A stretch of 64,000 nucleotides of DNA from Acidobacteriota bacterium. GTDB taxonomy: Bacteria; Acidobacteriota; Vicinamibacteria; Vicinamibacterales; UBA2999. The stretch covers positions 1 to 64,000 of the forward strand of contig CANKJK010000015.1 in the NCBI GenBank assembly GCA_947482665.1, given 5' to 3'. Position 1 is the stretch's first letter. Each line of letters starts with the position of its first letter. Under the pieces are notes generated by a model. The model was not told the DNA's origin. It was given only the letters and a program-made list of their open reading frames with translations, and made no database searches. Positions 1,435-64,000 of this stretch are shown here, piece after piece. The position numbers and the translations under genes were made by a program.

Positions 1435-2348
1435 TGAGAGGGCGGCTGGGCCTGCTGCTCGTCGTCGCCATCATGGCCCTGCGGTGCGGAGGCCAGTCTC
1501 CGACGGCTCCGACCGCGACAACGCCGGCCACCGGGCGGCCTCCCGAGACATCGCCGCCGTCGCCGGTCGCGCCCACCTCCGGCACGCCGCAGATCTTCGT
1601 GGGCGCCGGTGACATTTCCATGTGTGACAGCAATGCCGAGTCGACGGCCCGCCTGCTGGACGGCATCGGGGGCACCGTCTTCACGCTGGGGGACCACGCC
1701 TACTTCCACGGCACGCGCGAGGAGTTCCGGACCTGCTACGACCCGACGTGGGGCCGGCACAAGGCGCGGACCCGCCCGGTGCCCGGCAACCACGACTATG
1801 AGTCGGCCGGGGCTGCGCCCTACTTTGAGTACTTCGGCCCCAATGCCGGCACGGCCGGCGCCGGCTACTACAGCTTCGACGTCGGGGCCTGGCACGTCGT
1901 GGCGCTCAACAGCAACATCTCGATCGATTCCCAGCTGGCCTGGCTGCAACGGGACCTGCTGGCCAACCGGGCCGAATGCACGCTGGCGTACTTCCATCAC
2001 CCGCTCTTCACGTCCGGACCGGACGGCAGCACCCCGGACGTCTACCCGCTCTGGCAGGTGCTCTACGACGCCGGAGCGGAGGTCGTGCTGAACGGGCACG
2101 AACACTTCTACGAACGATTCGCCCCACAGGACCCCGGCGGACGGGCTGACCCGGTCCGCGGCCTTCGGGAGTTCATCGTGGGCACGGGAGGTGCGGCGCT
2201 CTATCAGCCGGTGAGGTTGGCGCCCAACAGCGAGACACGGATCAGCAGCTTCGGCGTGCTGAAACTCACCTTGGCGGCTGGGCGGTATGACTGGGAGTTC
2301 GTGCCGGTCGGCGGCGCATCCGACCGCGGCACGGGCGCCTGCCACTGA
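1434..2348 (+). CDS. Secreted calcineurin-like metallophosphoesterase
   Basis: A 304-residue protein with a hydrophobic N-terminal signal and Cys18 in ALRCGG, a possible though non-ideal lipobox, then a Pro/Thr-rich linker to about residue 50. The metallophosphoesterase signatures follow in order: GAGDIS, TLGDHAY, PGNHDY and NGHEHFYERF, which supply the Asp, His and Asn ligands of a dinuclear metal centre. This arrangement resembles purple-acid-phosphatase-like proteins that hydrolyse phosphate mono- or diesters outside the cytoplasm. The start overlaps the TonB-receptor stop, suggesting a joint nutrient-scavenging role, which is inference. The exact substrate is unknown. Confidence 0.85.
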   Translation: MRGRLGLLLVVAIMALRCGGQSPTAPTATTPATGRPPETSPPSPVAPTSGTPQIFVGAGDISMCDSNAESTARLLDGIGGTVFTLGDHAYFHGTREEFRTCYDPTWGRHKARTRPVPGNHDYESAGAAPYFEYFGPNAGTAGAGYYSFDVGAWHVVALNSNISIDSQLAWLQRDLLANRAECTLAYFHHPLFTSGPDGSTPDVYPLWQVLYDAGAEVVLNGHEHFYERFAPQDPGGRADPVRGLREFIVGTGGAALYQPVRLAPNSETRISSFGVLKLTLAAGRYDWEFVPVGGASDRGTGACH

Positions 2349-59785: not shown

Positions 59786-60379
59786 CTAGGCGCCGCCAGC
59801 CTTGCGCGGCGTGGTGACCTTGCGGGCGCCACGCGACTGGCCACCGGCCTTGGCCTTACCGGGCACGCTGGCCTGATTGCCGCGGACGCGACCAGCGGTC
59901 GCGCGCAGGCGCTCGCCGACGCTCTTCTTCGGCTTTGACGCCTCACCCTCGGCGGCTTCGGCCTCGGCTTCGGCCTTGGCGGCCTTCGGATCGAACTCGC
60001 TGCCCACCAGTTCCACGAGCGCGGTGTCCGCACCGTCGCCACGGCGGAAGCCGGTCTTGAGGATTCGGGTGTAGCCACCGGGACGTTCCGCGAAACGCGG
60101 CGCCAGAGAATCGAACAGCTTCGAGACGACCTCCCGATCCTGGAGGTCCTTCAGCACCAGACGTCTGGCGTTCAGGACCTTGCTGTCGGCGGCCCCAGCG
60201 GCCACGCCGCGCTTGGCCACGGTGATCAGCCGCTCCACAAAGGGCCGCAGTTCCTTGGCCTTGGGAAGCGTGGTTTCAATGTGCTCATGACGCAACAGAG
60301 CGGTGGCCAGATTGCGCAGCAGCGCCAGGCGGTGCTCCGTCACGCGTCCGAGCTTGCGGTGTGCGACGTTGTGTCTCAT
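59786..60379 (-). CDS. rplQ: 50S ribosomal protein L17
   Basis: 197 residues. The L17 core (about 1-127) starts [20 protein letters not shown] and has [16 protein letters not shown] and [17 protein letters not shown] further 70 residues, Ala/Glu-rich then Lys/Arg/Gly-rich ([37 protein letters not shown]), are absent from E. coli L17. Last gene of the alpha operon, 41 bases after rpoA. Confidence 0.95.
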
Positions 60380-60420: not shown

Positions 60421-61380
60421 TTAGTCCAGCCGCATCCCCAGGCTCAGGCCCATGCCCTGCAGGATGTCCTTGATTTCGTTGAGCGACTTTCTGCCGAAGT
60501 TCTTCGTCTTCAGCATCTCGGCTTCGCTCTTCTGCACCAACTCGCGGATCGTGCGGATATTGGCGTTCTTCAGGCAATTGTAGGAGCGCACCGAGAGCTC
60601 CAACTCCTCGACACTCTTGTCGAGGTTTTCGTTACCGGTGCCCACGCGCGGCTGCTCGACCTGTGCGTCGGCAATCTGCTCGGCTTCGTCCAGGTTCACG
60701 AAGATGTTCATGTGGTCGCGGAGCAGTCGCGCGGCGAGCGACACGGCGTCAGTCGGCGTGACAGATCCATTGGTCCACACATCCAGCGTCAGCTTGTCGT
60801 AGTCGGTGGTCTGGCCGAGGCGGGCAGCCTCCACCAGGTAGTTCACCTTCTTGACGGGGGTGTGCACCGAGTCAATCGGGATCCAGCCAATCCCAAGGTC
60901 CTCGTCAAAGTTCTTGTCGGCGGAGATATACCCGCGGCCGCGCTTCATCCGCAGTTCCATGTGGAGCTTGCCGCCAGCGGACACCGTCGCAATGTGTGCC
61001 TCGGGCTCGAGCACTTCGACCTCGTGGTCGAGCTGGATGTCCTTGGCGCGCACGATGCCAGGCTTATCCACCCGCACGACCAGCGTCTTGGTCGCGTCCG
61101 AGTGAATCTTCAGCGGAATCTGCTTCAGATTCAGGATGATGTCCGTCGCATCCTCGACGACACCCGGAATCGGCGAGAACTCATGCAGCACGCCGTCGAT
61201 CTTCACGGCCGTGATGGCCGCGCCCTCGATCGATGAGAGCAGCACGCGGCGGAGCGAGTTCCCGATCGTCGTGCCGAAACCTCGCTCAAACGGCTGGGCA
61301 TAGAAGCGGCCGAACCGATCGGTGAGAGTCTCGCGCTCGACTTCGAGGCGCTTGGGACGCTGAAAACCTTTCCAGAGCAT
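60421..61380 (-). CDS. rpoA: RNA polymerase alpha subunit
   Basis: 319 residues. N-terminal dimerisation domain with [40 protein letters not shown], flexible linker, and C-terminal domain [18 protein letters not shown] and [13 protein letters not shown]. Start ATG with AAAGGA upstream. The 117-nt spacer before it carries the interleaved inverted repeats described separately. Confidence 0.97.
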
Positions 61381-61401
61381 TGCTGATTCCTTTCGCGAAC
61401 G

Positions 61402-61481
61402 GGCCGACAGCTTCGGCCTCCAGACCTGCTAGTTGAACCGCCGGCCTCCCACCGCAGGTCTGTAAGGCTGCGGGCCGGCGG
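61402..61481 (-). ncRNA. Candidate pseudoknot mRNA element between rpsD and rpoA
   Basis: Read on the minus strand: stem 1 CCGCCGGCC (61481-61473) with GGCCGGCGG (61446-61438); stem 2 CAGACCTGC (61462-61454) with GCAGGTCTG (61429-61421). The two perfect 9-bp repeats interleave, giving loops of 10, 7 and 8 nt, as in an H-type pseudoknot; they could also be alternative folds. A separate hairpin GGCCGA/TCGGCC (61418-61402) follows, then AAAGGA and the rpoA ATG. Regulatory role is inference. Confidence 0.55.
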
Positions 61482-61497
61482 GTGCGAGTAAACGCGC

Positions 61498-62124
61498 TTA
61501 CTTCGAATACAACTCGACGATGAGCTGCTCCTGCACGGGCAGATTGATCTGCTCACGTGTCGGCAGCGAATTCACCTTGGCCGCGACGTCTCCCTCGACA
61601 CGCAGCCACTCCGGCACGCCTCGACCCTTGATCTCCTCGCGGGCGTGGAGAATGGCCGGGTGCTGGGCGCTGGTCTGACGGATCGCGAGCACGTCTCCCA
61701 CCTTCATCGAGAAGGACGGGATGTCGACCTTGCGGCCGTTAACGGTGAAGTGGCCATGCCGCACGAGCTGACGCGCCTGCGCTCGCGACGTGGCGAAGCC
61801 TGCACGGTAGGTCACGTTATCCAGGCGCCGCTCCAGGAGCTGCAGCAGCGTCTCACCCGTGATGCCACGGGTGCGCTCGGCCGCCTCGAAGTACCGGCGG
61901 AACTGATCCTCCAGCACGCCGTAGATGCGCTTGACCTTCTGCTTCTCGCGCAGCTGCACGCCGTAGCCCACCAGCTTCTGCTTCCGGGCCTTGCCGTGCT
62001 GTCCTGGGACGAAGTTCCGCTTCTCGATGCCGCACTTCTCGGTATAGCAGCGCTCGCCCTTCAGGAAGAGCTTCATGCCCTCCCGGCGGCAGAGCCGGCA
62101 CACGGGTCCGATATATCTAGCCAT
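61498..62124 (-). CDS. rpsD: 30S ribosomal protein S4
   Basis: 208 residues. [23 protein letters not shown] with CxxC and a further Cys in YTEKCGIE gives a zinc-ribbon-type S4 N terminus; the S4 domain has [20 protein letters not shown] and [18 protein letters not shown]. Primary 16S-binding protein; in E. coli it represses the alpha operon through an mRNA pseudoknot. It lies directly upstream of the candidate pseudoknot. Confidence 0.96.
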
Positions 62125-62144: not shown

Positions 62145-62582
62145 TTAGACGCGGCGCCGCTTCGTCGGCCGGCATCCGTTGTGCGGGATCGGAGTGATGT
62201 CGCGGATCGACTTCACTTCGACGCCCACCGTCTGCAGCGCACGGATCGCGGACTCACGGCCGGACCCAGGACCCTTCACGCGCACATCCACGGAACGGAG
62301 TCCGTATGTCTTCGCGGTATTGGCGGCGCTGATGGCAGCCTGCGTGGCCGCGAAGGGCGTGCCCTTGCGCGAACCCTTGAAGCCGATGCCACCGGCGCTC
62401 GACCACGAGATGACGTGGCCTTCCACGTCCGTGATCGTAATGTGCGTATTGTTGAAGGAAGCGTGGACATGCGCGAGGCCGTGGTGCACCACGCGCTTCT
62501 CGCCACGCTTCTTGAAGGTCTTGCGCTTCTTCGCGCCTTCCTTCTTGTCGGGTCCTGCGCCCGCTGATTCGGTCTTGGCCAT
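62145..62582 (-). CDS. rpsK: 30S ribosomal protein S11
   Basis: 145 residues. After a Lys-rich N-terminal extension of about 25 residues comes the conserved core: [39 protein letters not shown]-like [17 protein letters not shown], and C-terminal [12 protein letters not shown]. Located between rpsM and rpsD in standard order. Confidence 0.96.
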
Positions 62583-62603
62583 GTGTCTCTCGGTTCGTCC
62601 TTA

Positions 62604-62978
62604 CTACACCGTCTTCTTCTTGGCGATGGCTCCCTTACGGGGGCCCTTGCGAGTCCGCGCATTCGTGCGGGTGCGCTGACCGTGCATCGGCAGGTTGCGG
62701 CGATGCCGCAGCCCACGGTAGCAGCCGATTTCCATCAGCCGCTTGATGTTCATGGAGATCTCCTTGCGGAGGTCACCCTCGACACCGCCCACCTCTTCGA
62801 GCACCCGGCTGATCTTCCGGACGTCGTCCTCGGTGAGGTCCTTCACCCGCAGATCCGGGCTCACGCCCGCCTGGGTCAGGACATCCGTCGAACGCTTCCG
62901 GCCGATGCCGTAGATGTACGTGAGCCCGATCTCGATCCGCTTCGTGCGCGGAAGATCGATGCCAGCAATGCGTGCCAT
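62604..62978 (-). CDS. rpsM: 30S ribosomal protein S13
   Basis: 124 residues, canonical length. [50 protein letters not shown] and [11 protein letters not shown] are all conserved. Three bases after rpmJ, so no room for the E. coli-type leader pseudoknot at this point. Confidence 0.97.
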
Positions 62979-62981
62979 CGC

Positions 62982-63095
62982 TTACCCCTGCCTCTGCTTG
63001 TGCTTTGCATTGGTGCAGATCACCCGCACGACCCCACGCCGGCGGACCACCTTGCACTTGGCGCAAATACGCTTCACCGATGCTCGTACCTTCAT
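62982..63095 (-). CDS. rpmJ: 50S ribosomal protein L36
   Basis: A 37-residue gene. [20 protein letters not shown] is followed by [13 protein letters not shown]: the CxxC, later Cys and His of the zinc-binding L36 form are intact, which confirms it despite its size. It ends TAA 3 bases before rpsM and starts 11 bases after infA. Confidence 0.96.
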
Positions 63096-63106
63096 AAGCC
63101 CGTCCC

Positions 63107-63325
63107 TTACAGTTTCCTCACAATCCGACCACGTGTCAGATCGTGTCTGGCGAGCGCCACTTCCACTCGGTCGCCCACGAGGATTCGCACGAAATTCCTG
63201 CCGTCCCCTGCCGCGAGATGCGCCGTGACGCGCCGTTCGCCGTTCAGGTTCACCACGTACAGCGCGCTCGGGAGCTGTTCCTCGACCACGCCTTCCACCA
63301 CCACGGCCGCAGCCGGCTCGCTCAT
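63107..63325 (-). CDS. infA: Translation initiation factor IF-1
   Basis: 72 residues from the ATG overlapping the map stop (ATGA), which matches IF-1 length. OB-fold with [40 protein letters not shown] and end GRIVRKL. More divergent than usual in the middle ([11 protein letters not shown] instead of HISGKMRKNYI), but position between map and rpmJ is diagnostic. Confidence 0.92.
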
Positions 63326-64000
63326 CCCCGAATCGTGCCGAGGAGCTGCTCTACCCGACTCCGGTCCTGGTCGACCAATGTCAGGATTTCGCATCCATCC
63401 TTGGTCACCACGACCGTGTGCTCAAAGTGCGCCGAGAGGCTGCCGTCCTTGGTGACCGCAGTCCACCCGTCCGACAGCACCCTGACCGCTGCCTTCCCCG
63501 CGTTGACCATCGGCTCGATGGCCAGCACCATACCTTCCGCCAGTCTCGGCCCCCGTCCACCGGGCCCGTAGTTGGCGATCTGCGGTTCCTCGTGGAGTTC
63601 AGTGCCGATGCCATGGCCCACAAACTCCCGAACCACCGAAAACCCCTGCGCTTCCACGTGTCCCTGGACCGCCGCGCCGATATCCGAAACCCGCGCGCCA
63701 GGCCGAACCACGCTGATGGCCCGGAACAGGGACTCTTCGGTGGCACGAAGCAGGCCCTTGGCTTGCTCCGTGACCTTCCCGACCGGGACCGTCACGGCAC
63801 TGTCGCCGAAGAAACCGTTGAGCTTCGCGCCCATATCAATCGACACCACGTCGCCATCGCACAGTGCGCGATCCGACGGGATGCCGTGAACCACCTGCTC
63901 GTTCACCGAGGAGCAGATCGTCGCAGGGAACCCATGGTACCCCTTGAAGGCCGGCTCTGCCCCGGCTTCACGAACCCGCCGCTCAGCCAGCCGGTCCAGG
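63322..64000 (-). CDS. map: Methionine aminopeptidase, type I (5' end outside window)
   Basis: About 225 residues visible; the frame runs off the right edge and the N terminus is missing. [39 protein letters not shown] (metal Asp residues), [17 protein letters not shown] (metal His), [12 protein letters not shown] and [11 protein letters not shown] match MetAP type I, with all five metal ligands apparent. Removes initiator Met. Overlaps infA by 4 bases in the usual secY-adk-map-infA order (first two not visible). Confidence 0.95.

Follow-up and report, generated by a model that had tools for sequence, protein, structure and literature searches.

In the window, by which the whole analysed stretch of 64,000 nucleotides is meant, the spacer between rpsD and rpoA contains a structured element which, on comparative sequence evidence, probably forms an RNA pseudoknot in the rpoA leader and acts in cis to control the initiation of rpoA translation. 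The aligned relatives show a predicted fold of two interleaved helices (P1 and P2), usually accompanied by a hairpin (P3) and a weak closing helix (P0), at a fixed site before the rpoA start codon and with conserved putative loops L1 and L2. The predicted RNA family is real, confined to one order among the genomes sampled, and has no match in Rfam.

According to the list of open reading frames of the 64-kb window, the genes on the minus strand follow each other in the order infA, rpmJ, rpsM, rpsK, rpsD, rpoA, and rplQ. The identities of infA, rpmJ, rpsM, and rpsK are presumed from sequence and gene order, and we take the last gene to be rplQ from its operon position and sequence. The upstream gene rpsD, encoding uS4, occupies 61498..62124 on the minus strand (TIGR01017 match, E 5.6e-68). 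The presumed controlled gene rpoA, encoding the RNA polymerase alpha subunit, occupies the open reading frame 60421..61380 on the same strand (PF01193 match, E 3.3e-26), and rplQ (bL17), a possible second target, is the open reading frame at 59786..60379, likewise on the minus strand, after a gap of 41 nt. From infA to rplQ the intergenic gaps measure 11, 3, 21, 20, 117, and 41 nt in order, so that the rpsD-rpoA spacer (61381-61497, 117 nt) is the sole long gap because the other five range from 3 to 41 nt. The first-pass annotation was right in calling it the only long spacer of the operon, and also in giving the gap before rpsM, which separates it from rpmJ, as 3 bases. Neither a sigma-70-like promoter nor an intrinsic terminator consisting of a GC-rich stem and a T run was found in 61300-61800. 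In relatives with loci of sufficient length an open reading frame homologous to rplQ comes after rpoA.

The whole element, comprising P0, P1, P2, P3, and the rpoA Shine-Dalgarno sequence, lies at 61388..61487 on the minus strand as judged from the model match and a coordinate check. The covariance model R1 matches the window at 61388-61488 with 114.9 bits, the window copy being among the 33 sequences from which R1 was built. All features are on the minus strand and are given here in the direction of transcription. The 5' strand of P0 (TCGC, 61484..61487) shows partial pairing in relatives, above the null expectation, and is followed by the 5' strand of P1, pseudoknot helix 1 (CCGCCGGCC, 61473..61481), which is supported by covariation in 85 distinct sequences. 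Next come the unpaired L1 (CGCAGCCTTA, 61463..61472), with its first six nucleotides strongly conserved and the remainder variable, and the 5' strand of P2, pseudoknot helix 2 (CAGACCTGC, 61454..61462), assigned from pairing and compensatory branch events. The conserved L2 (GGTGGGA, 61447..61453) lies between the helices and leads to the 3' strand of P1 (GGCCGGCGG, 61438..61446), and the variable loop L3 (TTCAACTA, 61430..61437) leads to the 3' strand of P2 (GCAGGTCTG, 61421..61429), both strands resting on covariation and a sequence check. P1 and P2 are thus perfect 9-bp helices which interleave, and the 6-bp hairpin P3 (GGCCGA...TCGGCC, 61402..61418), supported by covariation, comes next. 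The 3' strand of P0 (GCGA, 61393..61396; covariation and sequence check) stands immediately before the Shine-Dalgarno sequence AAGGA (61388..61392, from sequence), and the rpoA start codon follows 7 nt after the latter. The two interleaved perfect 9-bp inverted repeats and the 6-bp hairpin which had been claimed in the first-pass annotation are present in the register it had given. Absent from it were the 4-bp P0, which can close the whole fold and abuts the Shine-Dalgarno sequence, as well as the conserved unpaired start of L1 (CGCAGC) and L2 (GCGGGA-like).

Such an arrangement is rare in random sequence. Interleaved perfect inverted repeats of at least 9 bp within a span of at most 100 occur as a single pair in the 64-kb window, namely P1 and P2, and among 20,000 dinucleotide shuffles of the spacer 680 contained any such inverted repeat and 1 contained an interleaved pair.

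For the comparison with relatives the element was collected by a simple spacer pattern, which took 35 of 51 rpsD-rpoA spacers and missed one locus containing Ns (L011). From these 35, two sequences with long insertions (L005 and L021) were omitted, and the resulting 33 were used to build R1, in which P0, P1, and P3 are paired and P2 is left unpaired. The same number of sequences, aligned by MAFFT without structure, makes up alignment A2. Alignment A4 contains 86 of the 91 places matched by the model, aligned to R1; left out were L011, L127, L130, L131, and L120, the latter as the other half of a locus in G001. A first alignment of 113 matches was set aside because of antisense matches in it. 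In A2, 15 of 28 pairs were changed on both sides, as compared to 5.4 in shuffled alignments and 5-8 when the partners were slid. In A4, with 85 distinct sequences, P1 was paired in 98.4% with both sides changed in 8 of 9 pairs, P3 in 96.9% with 6 of 6, and P0 in 74.6% of cells with 4 of 4, counts which lean towards the structure because A4 was fitted to these helices. P2 lay outside the model and hence was not fitted, and it was paired in 99.9% with 5 of 9 pairs changed on both sides. Over the whole structure A4 holds 250 double-changed cells versus 54.5 in shuffled and 17-56 in slid controls, and G-U pairs are among the compensatory changes.

Null sets which take the tree into account were also applied (200 and 500 sets); these are approximate and custom-made, and their tree was calculated from the element's own sequences. 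With 200 sets, four column pairs reached E<0.05; three belong to P1 and one to P3, so that all of them lie inside the structure. Within P2 no single pair reached E<0.05, the best having an E of 5.7 over all column pairs, since P2 hardly varies. Taken as a helix, P2 was paired in 763 of 764 cells versus a maximum of 753 in 500 null sets. The two partners changed on the same branch in 11 events, and one change broke the pairing. The pairing of P1, P3, and P0 was above that of all 500 null sets. The check for covariation in both stems which had been proposed at the outset therefore yielded compensatory changes in P1 as well as in P2, with single-pair significance in P1 and not in P2. From this covariation and the excess over the null sets both interleaved helices appear to be selected as RNA, and the element appears to be an H-type pseudoknot with each of its two helices kept by compensatory change.

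The loops differ strongly in their conservation. L1 starts with CGCAGC in 80 of 85 sequences, and L2 mostly reads GGCGGGA, AGCGGGA, AGCGAGC, or GGTGGGA. On the tree the changes per column amount to 0-2 in the first six positions of L1, 8-15 in its next four, 0-7 in L2, and 10-22 substitutions in L3. Conservation of L1 and L2 next to a variable L3 is compatible with ligand binding or with tertiary contacts. Five members (L005, L008, L013, L019, and L030) have a variant core, where L1 is CAGCAGC and L2 is AGCGAGC or AGCGGGC, and this joint change of the two loops hints at an additional contact between L1 and L2. In the window the GCAG of L1 is able to pair with CUGC of P2. An apical hairpin CCGCAG/CTGCGG was therefore tried as a counterpart of P2 and rejected: 428 of 500 null sets paired equally well or better, and there were 0 compensatory branch events. 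As in addition two members (L126 and L129) have P2 changed on both sides and L1 unchanged, a conserved switch between P2 and the apical hairpin is not supported.

Within the window's family and order rpoA was found in 54 of 59 genomes, the window's own included; in 51 of these 54 loci rpsD followed by rpoA was found, and the remaining three hold rpoA only. Of 193 genomes of the class, 86 had a match to R1, and in a sample of 396 genomes from across the phylum there were 28 with a match, all of them from the window's order; both searches used stricter filters, by which some weak matches were lost. Absence of the repeats from close relatives, which had been named beforehand as an argument against the pseudoknot, was not encountered: in the window's family (f1, the window included) rpoA was found in 31 of 36 genomes, and the element was present in all 31. 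In the wider list of this family 38 of 43 genomes match R1, and the five without a match (G002, G023, G030, G031, and G035) are the same five in which no rpoA was found. Scanning genome_contigs, described as covering 84,980 species, with the exact pattern returned 39 stretches, all at the rpoA locus, 37 of them with rpoA at most 250 nt downstream; in L149 and L153 rpsD lies upstream and the sequence ends 13 and 27 nt after the match. No element was seen in the loci read from families f3, f4, f6, f8, and f11-f14 of the same order, among them two genomes of f3 assembled as a single contig (G037 and G049), and rpoA can therefore do without it. Its absence from these two may account for its having gone unreported in previous surveys of named genomes. 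Inspection by eye of four loci from other families of the class (f16 and f17) and of two from outside the class likewise showed no element in the spacer.

Nearly all genomes have the element in one place, and five second places came up in the class search. One of these, in G154 (L112), has its own rpsD, element, and rpoA, and may come from a second organism, the draft being 6% contaminated. In G147 (contig C11, about 1509-1681, minus strand; L127) a broken second copy consists of an rpsD tail and the 5' half of the element, and it sits in a reading frame which by eye starts like the end of a transposase. Two further matches (L130 on G107:C98 and L131 on G148:C27) lie in 3.1 kb of sequence containing no gene of the alpha operon; they look like chance matches and were discarded. 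In G001 one match follows rpsD at a contig end and the other precedes rpoA at the end of a second contig, and the pair looks like one locus split by the assembly. Both of these contigs (G001:C24 and G001:C31; L120 and L012) end just past the element, and the stretch may thus hinder assembly.

The history of the element was traced on a tree of RpoA and RpsD from 77 hand-chosen loci, 52 of them with the element; some of its nodes have low support (0.24-0.59), and f1 does not form one clade. Presence and absence require at least four changes on this tree, and a single gain in the ancestor of the carriers requires five, one gain and four losses. We would prefer one gain in the common ancestor of the carriers because the core sequence is common to them. 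Family f10, placed by this tree as the sister group of all other families of the order, carries the element.

Several variants outline how much of the element can be dispensed with. Insertions occur in L3 (L021) and in the region of P3 (L005). Inspection by eye found no P3 in L118, L123, and L129, which reduces the minimal element to the pseudoknot close to the ribosome site; in L118 the 3' strand of P2 leads directly to GAAGGA before the start codon. Long inverted repeats which differ from one member to the other lie between rpsD and the element in L031, L006, L025, L030, L129, and others, and in L031 they take up almost all of the 90 bases that precede the element; the window is without one. 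The upstream half of the rpsD-rpoA spacer looks as if it accepts insertions. Six members from f5 (L095, L098, L100, L101, L103, and L106) have an extra GC-rich stretch between P0 and the Shine-Dalgarno sequence, which in several of them is a hairpin. Two order members without the pseudoknot have simple GC-rich hairpins in the rpsD-rpoA spacer, namely L016 (G047) and L203 (G097), the latter with two of them.

The gene which the element serves can be read from its position. The rpoA start follows the element in 85 of 86 members, the remaining one being cut by a contig end, and among the 85 the median distance from the model end to the start codon is 8 nt. Thirteen of them fall outside 0-20 nt: three which have lost P3 are at -14 to -15, and ten are at 27-110. 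Nine of these ten (L095, L098, L100, L101, L103, L106, L012, L021, and L122), in which the model ends 34-110 nt before the start codon, carry additional sequence, in many cases a hairpin, which either separates P0 from the Shine-Dalgarno sequence or takes the place of this region. As the fold does not touch the Shine-Dalgarno sequence in these nine, a simple blocking model is weakened. On the other side, rpsD precedes the element in 82 of 86 members; two of the exceptions are contig ends, and two are real. The latter belong to genus g33 (L113 of G138 and L132 of G044), where the order is rpsK, element, rpoA, and the operon contains no rpsD. Both genomes have a single S4 match above the cut-off of the family, located outside the operon (L137 in G044 and L138 in G138) and devoid of cysteines, sharing 42% (G044) and 39% (G138) identity with the window S4, which has four cysteines; this protein is apparently a replacement of the in-operon rpsD product. 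L1 and P2 are intact in both g33 members, and L2 is intact in L132 and changed by one base in L113. As rpoA retains the element even in operons without rpsD, the element belongs to rpoA and not to rpsD, and its location 3' of rpsD rules out control of rpsD in the manner usual for leaders. An effect on rplQ, 41 nt after rpoA, may exist as a secondary one. The g33 genomes, with rpsD out of the operon and the element kept, constitute a natural experiment.

The preferred mechanism is one in which formation of the fold, or its stabilisation by a ligand, would let the structure near the Shine-Dalgarno sequence block or entrap the 30S subunit, and in which rpoA would be translated once the fold opens. 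A protein might read L1, L2, and P2, and once bound would shift the balance of hindrance or trapping of the 30S subunit. Two ribosomal proteins are tentative candidates for this ligand, bL17, which is encoded downstream, and to a similar degree uS4; the alpha subunit itself is an unlikely one, and the ligand may also be another molecule or none at all. The gene context points to no metabolite of the kind that a small-molecule riboswitch would bind. In S13, S11, S4, alpha, and L17, no residue conserved among carriers was changed in at least two of four element-less clades, a comparison of low power. Resemblance to rRNA, which some known leaders show without its being a requirement, was examined with a typed consensus of the element and rRNA pieces of G020, and the local score obtained was reached by 32 of 100 (16S) and 9 of 100 (23S) mononucleotide shuffles, the 16S piece having only 890 nt and the 23S locus including flanking DNA, where the best match appears to fall. 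CCAGCAGC of the 16S piece occurs in the element, by eye, only within the variant L1 of a few members. A search for 16S gave no match in the window's own genome nor in 10 of 12 relatives searched, and this test for mimicry is weak because 16S was mostly not found in these genomes.

The S4 leader of the Escherichia coli alpha operon is contained in Rfam as RF00140, Alpha_RBS. At the gathering threshold the whole 64-kb window gave 0 Rfam matches. With E<=10 the region 61000-62000 yielded two miRNA families only (E 4.8 and 7.8), both outside the element, and the region before rpsM (62400-64000) yielded none. Identity of the element with Alpha_RBS was consequently dismissed, as no match to it was obtained in any of these searches, and the element is situated in the rpsD-rpoA spacer and not at the ribosome-binding site of rpsM.

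The first-pass annotation had interpreted the element as an S4-binding site, relocated from rpsM or newly evolved, by which excess uS4 represses rpoA and rplQ. What stands of this is that the pseudoknot is genuine and conserved and that its position would allow it to act on rpoA and perhaps on rplQ; the link to S4 is unsupported. Similarly, its statement that there is no S4 site before rpsM agrees with the lack of Rfam matches there, and a relocation is unsupported, given that the element itself has no Alpha_RBS match. The S4 reading draws on the presence of rpsD directly upstream in most members and on S4 being the known ligand of the E. coli alpha-operon pseudoknot (PMC10931766) and the predicted ligand of several such operon leaders elsewhere (PMC10931766 and PMC7247131). 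Like the present element, the E. coli leader is a pseudoknot at a ribosome-binding site of alpha-operon mRNA; unlike it, that leader includes the ribosome-binding site of rpsM, and S4 leaves the alpha cistron, said to be regulated independently of S4, unaffected (PMC10931766), whereas here the structure is located before rpoA in the middle of the operon. Predicted S4 leaders from Clostridia, Fusobacteriales, Bacteroidia, and Flavobacteria are similarly restricted to lineages and to operons with rpsD, rpoA, and rplQ, but the genes they regulate begin with rpsD or with rpsM, rpsK, rpsD, and the present element follows rpsD (PMC7247131; the word pseudoknot does not occur in its main text). The position downstream of rpsD means that the loop would not close on S4, and the g33 operon is without rpsD and its divergent S4 is encoded elsewhere, yet L1 and P2 are unchanged. 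Furthermore, the GUAA reported for S4 leaders of Firmicutes and Fusobacteria is not conserved, GTAA being found in 12 of 86 rows. Regulation by S4 is therefore possible though doubtful, and the evidence gives it no preference over the competing explanations.

For a fixed brake or insulator without any ligand, the position and structure would be sufficient by themselves, uncoupling the translation of rpoA from that of rpsD and holding alpha below the levels of the ribosomal proteins. RNA polymerase is needed in fewer copies than ribosomes, which counts for this explanation, but a mere brake would have no need of a strongly conserved unpaired L1 and of L2, and it is considered rather unlikely. 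Feedback specific for rpoA, with the pseudoknot as the receptor to which alpha, alone or in the polymerase, or another non-ribosomal protein binds on rpoA mRNA, is still less probable, and if true it would set the supply of RNA polymerase independently of the co-transcribed ribosomal genes. A stable GC-rich structure between cistrons could also serve mRNA processing or stability, by stopping exonucleases at the 3' terminus of the message upstream or by acting as an RNase site, but loss of rpsD from the operon does not remove the element from rpoA, and in L118 it stands beside the Shine-Dalgarno sequence even without P3, which makes such a function improbable. Chance repeats, or a palindrome acting at the level of DNA as a protein-binding site or mobile repeat, might be thought of in view of the unrelated inverted repeats in the upstream half of the spacer in many relatives. 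The single interleaved pair among the shuffles, the covariation with its compensatory changes and G-U pairs, and the occurrence at nearly always one place per genome, the five second places aside, speak against this explanation and leave it a negligible probability.

Compared with other known elements, the preferred rpoA leader has partial counterparts. L17 is a predicted leader ligand in Actino- and Proteobacteria according to PMC7247131. Both this L17 leader and the L17 downstream element of PMC2864571 are mRNA structures linked to rplQ, with L17 as a possible ligand as here; the former is listed with rplQ alone and the latter lies 3' of the L17 gene, and the two were compared with the present element by Rfam search only. 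The mycobacterial uS15-rpsO pseudoknot resembles it in lying upstream of the initiation site and in being suggested to prevent ribosome binding, and differs in gene and ligand; a UG/CG recognition motif belongs to the mycobacterial structure (PMC10931766). The Acidobacteria RNAs Acido-1 and Acido-Lenti-1, which have Rfam numbers according to PMC2864571, gave no match in the window. The terms rpoA and rpsD do not appear in that paper, and rpoA, rpsD, and Acidobacter do not appear in the main text of PMC11109978. Among the titles and abstract beginnings found in searches of open-licence literature, none deals with a pseudoknot at rpoA or with a leader of the acidobacterial alpha operon.

The element is thus a conserved RNA structure before a gene of a ribosomal protein operon, as in the leaders of ribosomal proteins, with the difference that the next gene, rpoA, does not encode a ribosomal protein. 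It is a strongly supported candidate for a cis-regulatory RNA and very probably a new genetic control switch. If dedicated to rpoA, it would be this lineage's way of separating the supply of RNA polymerase from the supply of ribosomes.
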